From: Sphingobacterium sp. ML3W
GTDB lineage: Bacteria; Bacteroidota; Bacteroidia; Sphingobacteriales; Sphingobacteriaceae
Direction of reading: 5' to 3'
Length of the DNA stretch: 64,000 bases
Assembly (NCBI RefSeq): GCF_000747525.1
Contig: NZ_CP009278.1
Span: 62,001-126,000, forward strand
The notes below the pieces were generated by a model. It was given only the letters and a program-made list of their open reading frames with translations. It did not search any database and had not been told where the DNA came from. Numbering within the stretch: the stretch's first letter is position 1; every line of letters starts with the position of its first letter. Below, in pieces: positions 48,996 through 60,725 of the stretch. The position numbers were made by a program, and so were the translations under genes.

Positions 48996-49826
48996 TTACT
49001 TACTCAATTCTTCGATCTTGCGATCGATAAATTGTGAAAGGGAAGGGTCAGCAGCCAATTGCTTACTTTGTTTGAAAGCAGCAACCGCGTCACTTTTCAT
49101 CCCGATATTTTCATAGCCTGTGGCTAAATAAAAGTAAGATTCCGCATCTGGTTTCAATTCAATAACTGTTTTGAAACGTTCAATCGCTTTATCAAACTGG
49201 CGAGATTGTAACGAAAACAATCCCAAAGTTTTGTTTGCTTCTACATTTTTTGGATCTGCTTGAACCACTTCACGAAGTAAAGCAATCCCTGCCATTGGGT
49301 TATTTGTACCCGATACCATTGCAGCTCCTAATCCTGTTTTCGCTTCTAAACTAGCAGCATTTAATTTCAAAGCTGCTTCGTAAGAACGAATTGCATTTTG
49401 AGTTAAAACGTTTGCTAAAGTAGAGTCTTGTAAGTTTGTGTAGGCAGTACGATAAAACTCTCCTGCTTTCAACCAGTACTCATATTTTGGAGAAATTTTA
49501 GCCATTTCTTCATAAATGAATCCTTGAGGAATAGGTTTTGCTAAATCATCCCACTTACCCGCCAACTTTTGAAGTAAAGAAATCTTTTCTTCTCCAGATG
49601 ACTTTGTAATTTGGGTCTCAATATCGGAAATATCTTTGATTAAATTTGCATCTAATCCCTGTTTTGTCATTAACGATACGTTTTCCAAATTAATTTCAGA
49701 AGAAGATTGCTCTGTTTCACTCGTTTCTTCCTTGTCGTTCACCAAACCCTTAATAGGTTGTGCCAATAAAACTGCAACTAATGCTACAGCCACGCCTACT
49801 ACTATAATTTGTTTGGTTTTTGCCAT
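48996..49826 (-). CDS. Tetratricopeptide repeat protein, membrane-anchored
   Basis: The 276-residue protein has an N-terminal helix (IIVVGVAVALVAVLLAQP), an acidic linker and TPR repeats from about residue 105 (for example NVEANKTLGLFSLQSRQFDKAIERFKTVIEL). TPRs bind other proteins; the partner is unknown. It lies 18 bp downstream of the HU gene, likely in one transcript. Confidence 0.8.
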   Translation of the reverse strand: MAKTKQIIVVGVAVALVAVLLAQPIKGLVNDKEETSETEQSSSEINLENVSLMTKQGLDANLIKDISDIETQITKSSGEEKISLLQKLAGKWDDLAKPIPQGFIYEEMAKISPKYEYWLKAGEFYRTAYTNLQDSTLANVLTQNAIRSYEAALKLNAASLEAKTGLGAAMVSGTNNPMAGIALLREVVQADPKNVEANKTLGLFSLQSRQFDKAIERFKTVIELKPDAESYFYLATGYENIGMKSDAVAAFKQSKQLAADPSLSQFIDRKIEELSK

Positions 49827-56638: not shown

Positions 56639-56695
56639 GAAACAAATAAAATAATTATTTGCGCAAAATAATCACAAATAAAAGTGTAAATATAT

Positions 56696-56726
56696 TTGCA
56701 TGAATGATTTCCAACTATTATATTTG
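56696..56726 (+). promoter_or_regulatory. Strong vegetative promoter reading into the guide-RNA tract
   Basis: TTTG (56,696-56,699), exactly 19 bp, TATATTTG (56,719-56,726) is identical in form to the tRNA-Pro promoter in this window. A second TATATTTG at 56,692-56,699 supplies the -33. No gene follows for 2 kb, so it should make a non-coding RNA. Confidence 0.7.
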
Positions 56727-56732
56727 TATGAC

Positions 56733-56870
56733 CAAGGCTAATCATTCTGGTCCTTCAGGGATCAAACCAGAATTAAGCAATCAGTCTATAGCTCCATGAT
56801 TGGAGCTATAGCTACTGAAACAACCAACTTGGACAAGAATACGCATAGATTAAAAAATTATGATAAATAA
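56733..56870 (+). ncRNA. Candidate structured non-coding RNA or array leader
   Basis: Right after the promoter are two hairpins: ATTCTGGT/ACCAGAAT (56,744-56,773) and a perfect 9-bp stem TATAGCTCC-ATGATT-GGAGCTATA (56,787-56,810). No open frame follows. It might be the leader of the guide transcript, a tracr-like partner or an sRNA. I found no anti-repeat to the downstream scaffold. The 3' end is arbitrary. Confidence 0.35.
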
Positions 56871-57071
56871 CAATTAGTTTGATAACCATTTTATCCTACG
56901 GCTAAATTAACCAATTATAATCCGCCGGAGTATTCCGTCAGAGCCGAGGATTCACGAGAATTAAAATTACTGGACTGTATTGCTAAGCATTATTTGAGAT
57001 CATTTATGTAGGTCCATTAGCATAACATCCTCAATAATTTGCTCTTTGACATATTGGTATTGATAAAAATC

Positions 57072-57121
57072 GAGGCTTCTTGTGAAGCCGTAAGGTGAGG
57101 GGCATACCACTCACTAAATAC
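57072..57121 (+). ncRNA. Guide-RNA scaffold copy 1, with guide at 57,122 onward
   Basis: 50 nt. Hairpin 1 is GGCTTC-TTGT-GAAGCC. Hairpin 2 is closed by GTGAG/CTCAC. The copy ends CTAAATAC. The following sequence (TTTAAATTTTCTCGTC...) is unique to this copy. It is the first of four scaffolds upstream of the sigma/dead-Cas12f operon. The guide role is inferred from layout. Confidence 0.7.
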
Positions 57122-57528
57122 TTTAAATTTTCTCGTCATCCATTTTTACTTCGCTTTAGTATTTGCATACGCATACATTAGCGGACCTAAATTGGAACAT
57201 TTATTCATAAAAAGATCATCTGTAATACCGTGTTATATGTATGTCAAAAGTATATCGGCAAACACATAATTAGGGTCTACTCATATTGGTCTTGTTTAAG
57301 ACGCCTAATTTTAAAGCGATACACAATTATGTTTATGTTTATTCTTAGCCATAAACAGCCATCATCTTTAACTGAAATTGAACGCGTACAAATTGTAGTT
57401 CAATAGATCAAAAAACTAGGACACGCATTTAACACGAGCTTATTCGAAAGACCCTTCACTATTTTCGCTTCCATCTAAAATGGAAATAATCCACCCATGT
57501 CTAGCAATCTCCCGCCACATGGGACAAT

Positions 57529-57579
57529 GAGGCTTCTTGTGGAGCCGTAGGATGAGCGCAACTGCTGCTCATTAAATAC
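57529..57579 (+). ncRNA. Guide-RNA scaffold copy 2, with guide at 57,580 onward
   Basis: 51 nt. Hairpin 1 is GGCTTC-TTGT-GGAGCC (one G-T pair). Hairpin 2 is closed by ATGAGC/GCTCAT, changed on both sides relative to copy 1. The copy ends TTAAATAC, then unique sequence CTTCTGTATGGTGTGG. Confidence 0.7.
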
Positions 57580-57868
57580 CTTCTGTATGGTGTGGCATAT
57601 AATAGGCCATTATTTGTCACCTTTATATATGAAATAGTATATACAACAAAGGACTTCGTACATATTACATTGACCTAGTAATTTTCGCTGCTTATAATTA
57701 TTCTAGCTTCGTTTTTATATACGGCAATGCTAAGTAATAATGAAAATTGCTAAATGAGGAGCAAATGAAGGGTAATATACAACTAGGTTCTTACTGGATA
57801 ATAAACCTTTTTACAGTAGCGACTATCACATTAAAGGAGTAACATATTAGCACATAATATCAAACAGG

Positions 57869-57919
57869 GAGGCTTCTTGTAGAGCCGCAGGGTGAGGGCA
57901 CTAGCCACTCATTAAATAC
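57869..57919 (+). ncRNA. Guide-RNA scaffold copy 3, with guide at 57,920 onward
   Basis: 51 nt. Hairpin 1 is GGCT...AGCC. Hairpin 2 is GTGAG-GGC-ACTA-GCC-A-CTCAT (outer G-T pair). The copy ends TTAAATAC, then unique sequence TTTTCAAGGCCATCTT. Confidence 0.7.
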
Positions 57920-58357
57920 TTTTCAAGGCCATCTTTATATGGCACACGATGTTCATAATTGCAGCAAGTCATCCATAGAACTTAACTTGACTAATTGGTT
58001 CTGCATGAGACGTATCCTTTTTCGAAAGTGTTACGCAAAAGTTGGCTCCTACATCGCGAACTTCTCATGGTGTTGATGAGCAAGGTAGATAGGAGGGGCA
58101 ACAGCACACGCCCCTTCCTGCTACCGCAATACTTATCTGCGACTGAACAAAAAGGAATTTACACCTTTGAAAAGTCAATAAACGAGATTTATAACTTATG
58201 AGCTTATTGGCCAAGTATAATCAATAAGCTGGGTTAACGAGATATGCTCATGTCTCTCCAGTTACAGTATATACAATCATGCACTATTTATTATTAAAAG
58301 GTTAGCTAGTTAGCGGGTTAGATTTTTCCACTCTTATTAAATATATAAATAAATAAC

Positions 58358-58408
58358 GAGGCTTCTTGTAAAGCCGTAGGGTGAGGGCATTTGCCACTCG
58401 CTAAATAC
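58358..58408 (+). ncRNA. Guide-RNA scaffold copy 4, with guide at 58,409 onward
   Basis: 51 nt. Hairpin 1 is GGCT...AGCC. Hairpin 2 is GTGAG-GGC-ATTT-GCC-A-CTCGC (one G-T pair). The copy ends CTAAATAC, then unique sequence CTGCCAAGACTTAAAA. It lies about 400 bp before the sigma gene. Confidence 0.7.
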
Positions 58409-58806
58409 CTGCCAAGACTTAAAATATTATCGTAAGTTTTATAACAAAGCTACATGTTGAAAGGGATATACAATGATCAAGTACAAGCTATCTCCAAAAG
58501 AATAGGTACTAAGCAAATGCTACAAAGTACACTTAAAAGAACATGCTTATTTCCTAAAGCTTGGATGGCATATACAACATTGAATTTTGAGTTAAAAAAT
58601 TGACTGCATCATGCATAACCACAACATTAAAAGGACTCTATATCAAAAATATCCTGAAAACATCAAAAAATAAATGCTAAATACGCTCAATACCAATACG
58701 TTTATTCATAAAGCAGATCACACTTAGGCAGCTTAAGCTCTCTGTAACACCTGATGCCGAAACTGTTCTAAGTGTTATTGATTTTCAACGCTATATAAAT
58801 CGAAAT

Positions 58807-59619
58807 ATGAACAACATTTACGTAAAGAAAAGTATTAAAAATCAAGTGATATTACTCAATCAGGGAATAGAAAAAGGTTTGTCTTTTTTCTATACGCGCT
58901 ATTTCTCGTATTTCTACCTACGCGCTACACGCGCTACCCAAGATCCATGCGCCTCGAAATCAATCACTCAGGAAGCTTTTCTTCGACTATGGCTATTCCG
59001 CGAAAATGTTTATTCAGATAATGATATCTTTCTTTTTCTAAAAACGCAAGTCAAGTCAGCTATTCACATTTTCTTTAGCAAAAGTAGAAATCGCTTTCAC
59101 CGCAGTCTCCTTCAACTGGATGCCGTAGATAATTACCAAGAGTTTCTTGCTGGCTATGAACTGGAAGAGGAAGAAGAGGAGAATTTGATCTACCTCGACC
59201 AGCTGGAAGATGAAAAAAAGGAAAAGTTGGACAAACTCAACAAATTGATTCCTTTTTTAAACATCGAGCAGCAACTATTTATTAAACTCTGCCTACAATA
59301 TAGCTTCAACTATGAACGTATCGCTTATTATCTTGGTGGTATATCGGATTATGAGGTGAGTCTACAAGTAGAAAAAACTATTAATACCTTAAGGGCGATC
59401 TTTAAAAATGCCGATAAGATGGACAGGATAACGCGATCTCGTAAAGTTGTACTGGAAGGAAAACTGAGTCCTGAACAATCCGAAATATTCCACATGCGCT
59501 ATGAGCTGCAACTGTCATTCGATCAGATAGCACAAGAATTAAAGTTAAACTCTACGACTGTAAGAAAACTTTTTATCGAAGCGCATAGCAGGATAAAACC
59601 GTCTAAACAAATCGCTTAA
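58807..59619 (+). CDS. Sigma-70-family (ECF-like) factor with two region-4-like modules
   Basis: The 270-residue protein has a sigma region 2 (about 18-98; SITQEAFLRLWLFRENV is the usual core) and an acidic linker (ELEEEEEEN, about 118-127). Two HTH blocks resembling region 4 follow: LIPFLNIEQQLFIKLCLQYSFNYERIAYYLGG and LSPEQSEIFHMRYELQLSFDQIAQELKLNSTTVRKL. Typical ECF factors are about 180-200 residues with one region 4. It lies 11 bp before the dead Cas12f gene, so the two are one operon. No anti-sigma gene is present. Confidence 0.85.
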   Translation: MNNIYVKKSIKNQVILLNQGIEKGLSFFYTRYFSYFYLRATRATQDPCASKSITQEAFLRLWLFRENVYSDNDIFLFLKTQVKSAIHIFFSKSRNRFHRSLLQLDAVDNYQEFLAGYELEEEEEENLIYLDQLEDEKKEKLDKLNKLIPFLNIEQQLFIKLCLQYSFNYERIAYYLGGISDYEVSLQVEKTINTLRAIFKNADKMDRITRSRKVVLEGKLSPEQSEIFHMRYELQLSFDQIAQELKLNSTTVRKLFIEAHSRIKPSKQIA

Positions 59620-59630
59620 AACAATGCATT

Positions 59631-60725
59631 ATGGCTAATGATACGACTATACTAACGCGTAAGATCCAAATTTTCATCGATTGTGATGATAAGGAAAAAA
59701 GGATAGCGTATTTTAAAAAGCTGTTCGAATGGCAAGACATTGTTTTTCGAGGGGCAAATCTGGTATTGACCCATCAGTATGTACAGGAAAACCTAAAAGA
59801 TCTTATCTACCTCCAAACAGAAGTTAAAGTAAAACTAGCGGACAATGATACCGACAAAGAGGGCATCTTGAACACCTCTCGTATGAATACGACTTATCGC
59901 TTGCTCTCCAGCTATTTCAAAGGCCTGATTCCAACCGATATCCTATCCAAAGTCAATACAGCATTGATTAAAAACTTTCAATCTGACCGTCTGGAATATT
60001 GGAAAGGCACAAGGTCTCTTCGCAATTATAAGAAAGATATGCCTATTCCATTCTCTTCAAAAGCTGTTAAATTAAGTAATGACGAGCATGGACGCGATTT
60101 TAAACTTGATTTATTTAAAATTCCTTTTCGCACCTATCTTGGCAAAGACCGTTCTGATAAGCGTGTACTGCTACAGCGTGCATTAGTAGGTCAAATCAAG
60201 GTATGTGCCAGTTCCGTCAAAATTGTGAAAGGGAAGATATTTTTACTCTTAGCATTAGAAATCCCTACAAAAGAACATATGCTTCAGGAGCATATTATTG
60301 CCGAGGCCTCACTATCCGTGGAGCACCCTATTTCTGTAATGATCGAAAAAGACAATTATCAGATCGGTACCAAAGAAGAATTTCTATACCGTCGTATAGC
60401 GATACAAGCAGCACGGCACCGCCTCCAAAAGGCATCTTCCTATAACAAAGGGGGAAAGGGAAGGAAGAGAAAACTCAAAAGCTTAGATCATTACAATCAA
60501 AAGGAGAAAAATTATGTTGACAGTAGGCTTCACCTCTACAGCCGTAAACTTATTGATATCTGCATCAAATCTCAAGCAGGCACGCTCCTATTAGTCAATC
60601 AATCCAACAAAGAAGAAATGGCAAAAGAGGACGAGTTCTTACTTCGGAACTGGAGCTATTATGGTCTCATCGAAAAGATTAAATATAAAGCCAAAATGGC
60701 AGGAATCAATGTTATTATCGAATAA
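59631..60725 (+). CDS. Nuclease-dead Cas12f/TnpB-like RNA-guided protein
   Basis: The 364-residue protein shows the Cas12f/TnpB order: a beta-barrel N-terminus, the helical REC part, then KGTRSLRNYKKDMPIPF (about 124-140, a typical Cas12f block). RuvC-I is degraded to ASLSVEHP where active enzymes have V-D-L-G. The bridge/helix part is KGRKRKLKSLDHYNQKEKNY. RuvC-II reads GTLLLVNQS where active enzymes have M-E-D-L-S. The chain ends KAKMAGINVIIE, just before the zinc ribbon and RuvC-III Asp. It should bind guide RNA and DNA without cutting and tether the sigma factor. Confidence 0.85.
   Translation: MANDTTILTRKIQIFIDCDDKEKRIAYFKKLFEWQDIVFRGANLVLTHQYVQENLKDLIYLQTEVKVKLADNDTDKEGILNTSRMNTTYRLLSSYFKGLIPTDILSKVNTALIKNFQSDRLEYWKGTRSLRNYKKDMPIPFSSKAVKLSNDEHGRDFKLDLFKIPFRTYLGKDRSDKRVLLQRALVGQIKVCASSVKIVKGKIFLLLALEIPTKEHMLQEHIIAEASLSVEHPISVMIEKDNYQIGTKEEFLYRRIAIQAARHRLQKASSYNKGGKGRKRKLKSLDHYNQKEKNYVDSRLHLYSRKLIDICIKSQAGTLLLVNQSNKEEMAKEDEFLLRNWSYYGLIEKIKYKAKMAGINVIIE

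Follow-up and report, generated by a model that had tools for sequence, protein, structure and literature searches.

RNA-guided transcription by nuclease-dead Cas12f (dCas12f) and sigmaE in Bacteroidota has reportedly been described by Hoffmann et al. in 2025 (PDB 9n9c, 9n9m, 9n9o and 9n9q), with targets that are said to lie upstream of SusC-type genes and to carry a 5'-G target-adjacent motif. The locus considered here lies in a window of the Sphingobacterium sp. ML3W genome (the whole stretch of DNA analysed, 64,000 nt, NZ_CP009278.1 62,001-126,000; positions below are in window numbering) and combines a sigma factor gene, a gene for a predicted dCas12f and an array of putative guides. Judged by its sequence, the gene pair belongs to the dCas12f-sigma kind, and the locus is probably an RNA-guided regulator in which dead Cas12f, probably together with the sigma factor, would be led by the crRNA-like guides of the array to the host's own SusC/TonB-receptor genes and a related family of leader genes. 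As in dCas12f-sigmaE systems, both proteins match PDB chains, a structured guide RNA is predicted upstream, and guide matches lie upstream of host operons (for the window's guides, one such site, that of guide e). Unlike in those systems as reported, there are several guides per tracr-like unit (resembling a trans-activating CRISPR RNA), guides shared across species, and antisense sites at start codons, and the 5' context of the matches appears to be TR, against the reported 5'-G. What looks new is therefore the combination of multi-guide CRISPR-type arrays, guides that are shared between species and host-directed, and two classes of site, part of which may already be in print.

TldR is described as a phage-encoded, nuclease-dead TnpB-like repressor that replaces one flagellin by another (PMC13418256). 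The present locus is similar in that a catalytically dead TnpB/Cas12-type protein would act as an RNA-guided transcription factor, and the flagellin replacement, a swap of surface structures, resembles the transporter switch proposed below; unlike TldR as portrayed there, the locus has a sigma partner, arrays and many candidate chromosomal targets. Type V-F CRISPR-Cas12f systems share with it protein similarity, a tracr-like unit, a 36-nt repeat and spacers of ~30 nt. In contrast to those systems, the catalytic residues are apparently lost here, the spacers are host-directed, several tracr-like units occur per array, and there is no Cas1/Cas2 among the scanned neighbours. Cas12m is likewise a Cas12 effector that binds DNA without cleavage, as is predicted here; in the part of its literature that was available, it has a role in defence, unlike the role proposed for this locus, and no sigma partner is named for it.

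Protein pair and guide array

An earlier, sequence-only reading of this DNA had noted a sigma-70-like gene followed 11 bp later by a Cas12f/TnpB-like gene lacking catalytic residues, and had proposed that a dead Cas12f is paired with a sigma factor. Both genes and the 11 bp spacing are as it described, and PDB sequence searches agree with the pairing: residues 4-363 of the 364-aa protein match 9n9c_A, 'Nuclease-deactivated Cas12f' (E 2e-125), and the sigma protein matches 9n9q_C, 'RpoE' (E 7.2e-34), both over nearly the whole length. Other matches of the 364-aa protein include active Cas12f (9nzo) and 8hr5. By our reading of the alignment to 9nzo, Ser and Val occupy the positions that we assign to Asp of RuvC-I and Glu of RuvC-II, and the chain terminates ahead of RuvC-III and the zinc ribbon, in line with the proposed loss of catalytic residues. 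The 364-aa protein is thus predicted to be a nuclease-dead relative of Cas12f. It matches the NCBIfam model guided_TnpB with E 2.7e-15, below the model's own cut-off, and has no Pfam match; the Pfam Cas12f1-like TNB domain has no match in the host's own genome. Structure prediction using 12 close relatives gave no usable model (predicted local distance difference test score, pLDDT, of 43).

The 2.2 kb 5' of the sigma gene hold no gene-like open reading frame (ORF) in 56639-58806, the sole ORF there being 68 aa, and the four structured repeats that the sequence-only reading had placed in about 2 kb of non-coding DNA are present as tracr-like units 1-4. A pattern built from them matches three of the four copies against none expected, the first copy being one base shorter, and their folding z-scores are -4.4, -3.7, -2.2 and -2.7. 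For comparison, 39 of the 58 other near-full-length loci (our count) and the host's own second locus, L079, were used, giving 41 loci with that of the window; L042 and L043 are near-identical. Each of the 41 carries one to six units, 97 in total after filtering.

The units are followed by a second motif, GTATACACAAC or a variant of it, after which the guides begin. With up to 2 substitutions allowed and a filter on the last bases, 309 such anchors (308 or 309 depending on the run) were found in the 41 loci, compared with 46.9 in first-order shuffled sequence; three loci (L072, L076 and L078) have none. Among 271 anchor-to-anchor gaps, 147 measure 60-70 nt, against 0.65 expected, and 69 are exactly 66 nt. 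The array of the family accordingly has a 36-nt repeat, gaTgTTaatgatcacAAttTgaAaGGTATACACAAC, spacers of ~30 nt and a 66-nt period. This periodicity across the 41 loci indicates CRISPR-type arrays headed by tracr-like units, contrary to the sequence-only reading, which had seen no classical CRISPR array. In the window's copy, which is worn, four units and seven irregularly spaced anchors remain (guides a-g, Table 1); several natural guides are present, as that reading had held, seven anchors being counted in place of its four guides. Its absence of Cas1, Cas2 and TnpA stands for the scanned neighbour proteins, among which none was found; the remaining window and genome were not scanned for them.

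The tail of each unit (ATACC...) is complementary to GGTAT of the repeat. Watson-Crick pairs between tail and repeat average 6.36 of 10 within a locus and 5.93 of 10 between loci, and none of 5000 permutations was as high, in a test of 27 loci that includes the effect of their relatedness. The consensus fold of 11 unit-repeat stretches likewise consists of two hairpins and a short unit-repeat helix. Where the guide starts can be seen without use of the motif: of 68 exact 15-mer stretches common to array regions and SusC-type loci, 16 start at distance 0 from an anchor and any other distance occurs at most 3 times, which indicates that the guide starts after the repeat. Placing the guide in the 20 nt directly after TAAATAC, as the sequence-only reading did, was rejected. 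That stretch is complementary to the repeat, host-gene matches begin after GTATACACAAC, and two of the four stretches, searched in the host's own genome, gave 1 and 6 off-locus matches, all with 3 mismatches, versus 2 and 6 for the reversed patterns. An inverting array was also considered and rejected; a minus-strand search for units gave few loose matches and no clear inverted array.

Among 308 guides, 101 fall into clusters of similar sequence, some of which join near-identical or same-locus copies; the biggest cluster spans 6 loci, and guide a of the window is common to 6 loci. The spacers of one array of the 41 (L052) had no match at E 0.1 in a phage collection, and a search of a plasmid collection returned 4 distant matches, labelled transposase or TnpB.

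Matches of the guides to host genes

The most trustworthy comparison covers 104 SusC-type loci, with guide-chosen loci left out and repeats merged. Distinct exact sites of guides and of reversed guides number 21 vs 7 for 14-mers, 15 vs 4 for 15-mers and 10 vs 0 for 16-mers, in keeping with the susC-type targets that the sequence-only reading had suggested. At the 21 sites, the base at -1 of the guide match is A in 10, G in 7, T in 3 and C in 1 (A/G in 17 of 21), and the base at -2 is T in 14. A set of 43 sites, 10 of them guide-chosen by our count, has A/G at -1 in 30 and T at -2 in 26, and there the pairing of guide and site mostly ends after 14-18 nt. Loci that were found via a guide, and match by construction, are L092/L093 (with L181/L183), L231-L255, L280-L324 and the loci of P0001 (see below).

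Guide TTGCTCTATTCAAGCG..., which is present in several arrays, is also matched outside the arrays in G069 and G075, in each case 5' of a SusC-type gene. Besides this finding guide, two other guides match exactly at these loci and two more match with 1 mismatch, which suggests that several guides meet in one region. When the 308 guides were compared with 56 own SusC upstream regions and the G069/G075 loci, exact 16-mers gave 14 rows (9 guide-site pairs) and the reversed guides none, every row lying in the two guide-chosen loci and in a single orientation; the corresponding numbers are 41 vs 20 with 1 mismatch and 273 vs 283 with 2. When 50 loci from that SusC subfamily are used, there are 55 exact 14-mers vs 7, overlapping and guide-chosen loci included. 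The host's own genome has 56 SusC-family matches, and a search of their regions (54 with a placed ATG) with the guides of the 41 loci, at up to 1 mismatch, returned 12 rows vs 5 reversed. Near the ATG there are 6 rows vs 0 reversed; 5 are antisense, four of these being guide a from four arrays.

Guide matches also lie at leader ORFs. P0002 is the leader ORF of a SusC operon, and P0001, a 192-aa ORF (L238:1907-2485), is 48% identical to it over 169 residues. At leader-ORF loci (37 of 76 with a placed ORF of the P0001/P0002 family), exact 14-mers gave 16 rows vs 1, of which 15 are sense and 114-1226 bp upstream; guide e chose two of these loci, 6 of the 16 rows are guide-chosen, and without guide e 9 of 10 are sense. 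Members of the leader-ORF family (190-235 aa) stand before each of 8 own SusC genes of the subfamily (L211-L218), with 14 own-genome matches in all, and have no Pfam or NCBIfam match.

Four of the seven window guides (a, c, e and g) match beside own nutrient-transporter genes or a related gene (for guides e, g and a, part of the listed matches were examined singly). For guide e, the own genome contains an exact 14-mer in sense orientation at C1:1463019, 406 bp 5' of P0001. The site is kept in G067 and G005, whose arrays carry guide e, and G024 and G054 have neither guide nor site; guide and target thus occur together in all three guide-bearing genomes checked, the host's own included, a fourth, G004, standing outside the count. 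Own-genome matches of guide e number 11 (array included) vs 3 reversed, and most of those examined are in ordinary places.

Guide g is matched off the array by an exact 17-mer in each of 4 genomes; the match is antisense and lies 8-9 nt ahead of the start of one orthologous TonB-receptor gene (Plug, E 3.6e-11), which lies behind a match to the thiamine pyrophosphate (TPP) riboswitch with E 1.9e-7, below the Rfam gathering score. Similarly, guide a has an exact 16-mer at SusC start codons in G005, G024 and G067 and matches 15 of 16 nt at two own SusC genes, in each case antisense and abutting the ATG, and guide c matches 15 of 16 nt, antisense, 12 nt before an ATG of an own SusC gene. Additionally, the 17-mer of guide g recurs with 1 mismatch at window 49390-49406 (own C1:111390), inside a conserved coding gene, with near matches at the corresponding place in G005 and G024; this recurrence is probably due to chance. 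Targets for guide b were sought and rejected: 5 off-locus matches, all with 3 mismatches, stand against 11 for the reversed pattern, and of two that were examined one is part of a terminator-like hairpin and the other falls within a coding gene. The seven window guides, a doubtful eighth (57145 region) and the guides of L079 were compared with 16 SusC-type loci of five genomes, and no window guide was clearly above control regions.

Proposed regulation and its alternatives

For an RNA-guided regulator of this kind, unit, repeat and guide would function as one guide RNA, and the complex would bind DNA through ~14-18 nt of pairing beside a 5'-TR motif. Where a site lies upstream of an operon in sense, RNA polymerase would be recruited by the sigma factor and transcription would run toward the operon, in the way reported for the solved relatives. 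Where a site covers a start codon in antisense, expression would be lowered by the bound complex itself or by antisense transcription that starts from it; sites of this second class suggest a TldR-like repression of host genes. In this way the cell would switch its set of nutrient transporters in the outer membrane. A bolder form of this proposal, which we put forward tentatively, is that a CRISPR array now serves as a standing regulatory programme with several guides, in which one dCas12f-sigma complex would read conserved, host-directed spacers, and some SusC-type operons would be switched on from far upstream and other SusC/TonB-receptor genes silenced at their start codons, such that transporters would be rewired by changes of spacers and not of promoters.

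If this is true, several genes are regulated through a natural CRISPR array for which the start of the guide, the length of pairing, the 5' context and specific targets are already available. One could then test how gene control arose from CRISPR immunity, whether expression can be both raised and lowered by a single RNA-guided complex, and by what means Bacteroidota select among their dozens of SusC transporters; the multi-guide layout would also be a natural model for multiplexed gene activation.

Several observations weigh against the proposal. The window's own array is worn and aperiodic, 207 of the 308 guides are singletons, and guides overall barely exceed the control in the 56 own SusC regions. 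The 14-mer of guide e is short, its matches in four other genomes number 18 vs 20 reversed, and one longer match in the own genome falls within an ordinary coding gene (L243). For the AT-rich guide a, further 1-mismatch matches exist, few guides (a, c and g) have antisense sites at start codons, and no target was found for guides b, d and f. No promoter-like motif was found at a fixed distance downstream of 33 sense or mixed sites. Finally, no sigma gene was found in 5 of 40 other loci (L065, L073, L074, L075 and L077), and L065 carries guides a and e of the window. These sigma-less loci and the antisense class of sites speak against simple activation.

The sigma-less loci L073, L074, L075 and L077 have a single unit each, and all five retain dCas12f, units and the XRE gene; they are perhaps repressor-only forms. 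Linkage of the sigma gene in homologues, as expected in the sequence-only reading, holds in 35 of the 40 other loci, where it adjoins dCas12f, and fails in these five, including L065 with its two shared guides. Overall, the observation made in that reading is partly confirmed and its interpretation partly supported.

These same features bear on whether the complex might act in one direction only. As a pure activator, which is what the sequence-only reading had in mind, dCas12f with guide and sigma would start transcription at every true target, and antisense matches at start codons would be due to chance or would drive antisense or divergent transcripts. The frequent adjacency of the sigma gene, the RpoE chain among the solved relatives and the mainly sense, upstream position of leader-ORF sites are all consistent with this. 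However, guides a, c and g are antisense at start codons, guide g in every genome compared, which fits repression better than activation, and sigma-less loci retain units and guides; activation alone is unlikely. It is a little less likely still that dCas12f is a pure repressor, similar to TldR, that blocks transcription wherever it is bound, with the sigma factor used for something else, for instance transcription of the array or of its own operon. Start-codon sites and the existence of sigma-less loci would suit such a repressor, yet the sigma gene is conserved beside dCas12f in most loci, and many sites are sense and far upstream, in long non-coding stretches. Least probable is that the locus is a type V-F CRISPR-Cas system in decay that no longer has a function, with spacers left over from self-targeting: loss of the catalytic residues (our reading), the worn array and the second dCas12f locus of the own genome, which is broken, would agree with decay, but dCas12f is matched in 55 of 93 Sphingobacterium genomes, nearly all long matches lacking stops, different species have guides in common, matches to one gene class exceed the control, and the one array tested found no match in the phage collection.

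Other features of the locus and related copies

Table 1. Positions of the genes, tracr-like units, repeat ends with guides and inverted-repeat elements in the window.
Feature	Position	Strand	Remarks
XRE-type helix-turn-helix gene, divergent, 158 aa	56162..56638	-	Pfam HTH_3 E 2e-8
Left inverted-repeat element ...TATTGGTATTGA	57049..57063	+	directly before unit 1; 93% complementary to 58687-58701
Tracr-like unit 1	57072..57120	+	two hairpins, TAAATA at end
Worn repeat end CGATACACAAT + guide a	57317..57345	+	guide from 57328
Tracr-like unit 2	57529..57578	+	
Repeat end GTATATACAAC + guide b	57637..57665	+	guide from 57648
Repeat end TAATATACAAC + guide c	57773..57801	+	guide from 57784
Tracr-like unit 3	57869..57918	+	
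Worn repeat end GTATAATCAAT + guide d	58215..58243	+	guide from 58226; similar guide in L042/L043
Repeat end GTATATACAAT + guide e	58267..58295	+	guide from 58278
Tracr-like unit 4	58358..58407	+	
Repeat end GGATATACAAT + guide f	58464..58492	+	guide from 58475
Repeat end GCATATACAAC + guide g	58568..58596	+	guide from 58579
Right inverted-repeat element	58687..58701	-	~120 bp 5' of sigma gene
Sigma gene, extracytoplasmic function (ECF) type, 270 aa	58807..59619	+	TIGR02937 E 7.5e-12; sigma-70 region 4 E 6e-8; RpoE match
Predicted nuclease-dead Cas12f-like gene, 364 aa	59631..60725	+	PDB match 9n9c

A homologue of the XRE gene stands beside dCas12f in 23 of the 40 other loci, including all 5 without sigma. 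Inverted copies of TATTGGTATTGA bracket the array, the left and the right element each occurring in 24 of 41 loci, and the right element lies ~120 bp before sigma in related loci too. It is possible that the left element TATTGGTATTGA is a leader or a regulator site.

The second copy in the host's own genome, L079 (G000:C1:1168000-1178000), is degraded. It has three units, its dCas12f is in pieces around C1:1174136-1174653, and its sigma protein aligns over 257 residues. With 1-2 mismatches, three of its guides resemble sites at two SusC loci of the own genome, L211 and L218. A dCas12f relative with 75% identity (L338) is found on a 7.4-kb contig of a metagenome-assembled genome labelled Neobacillus, and is likely to be the result of a binning error.

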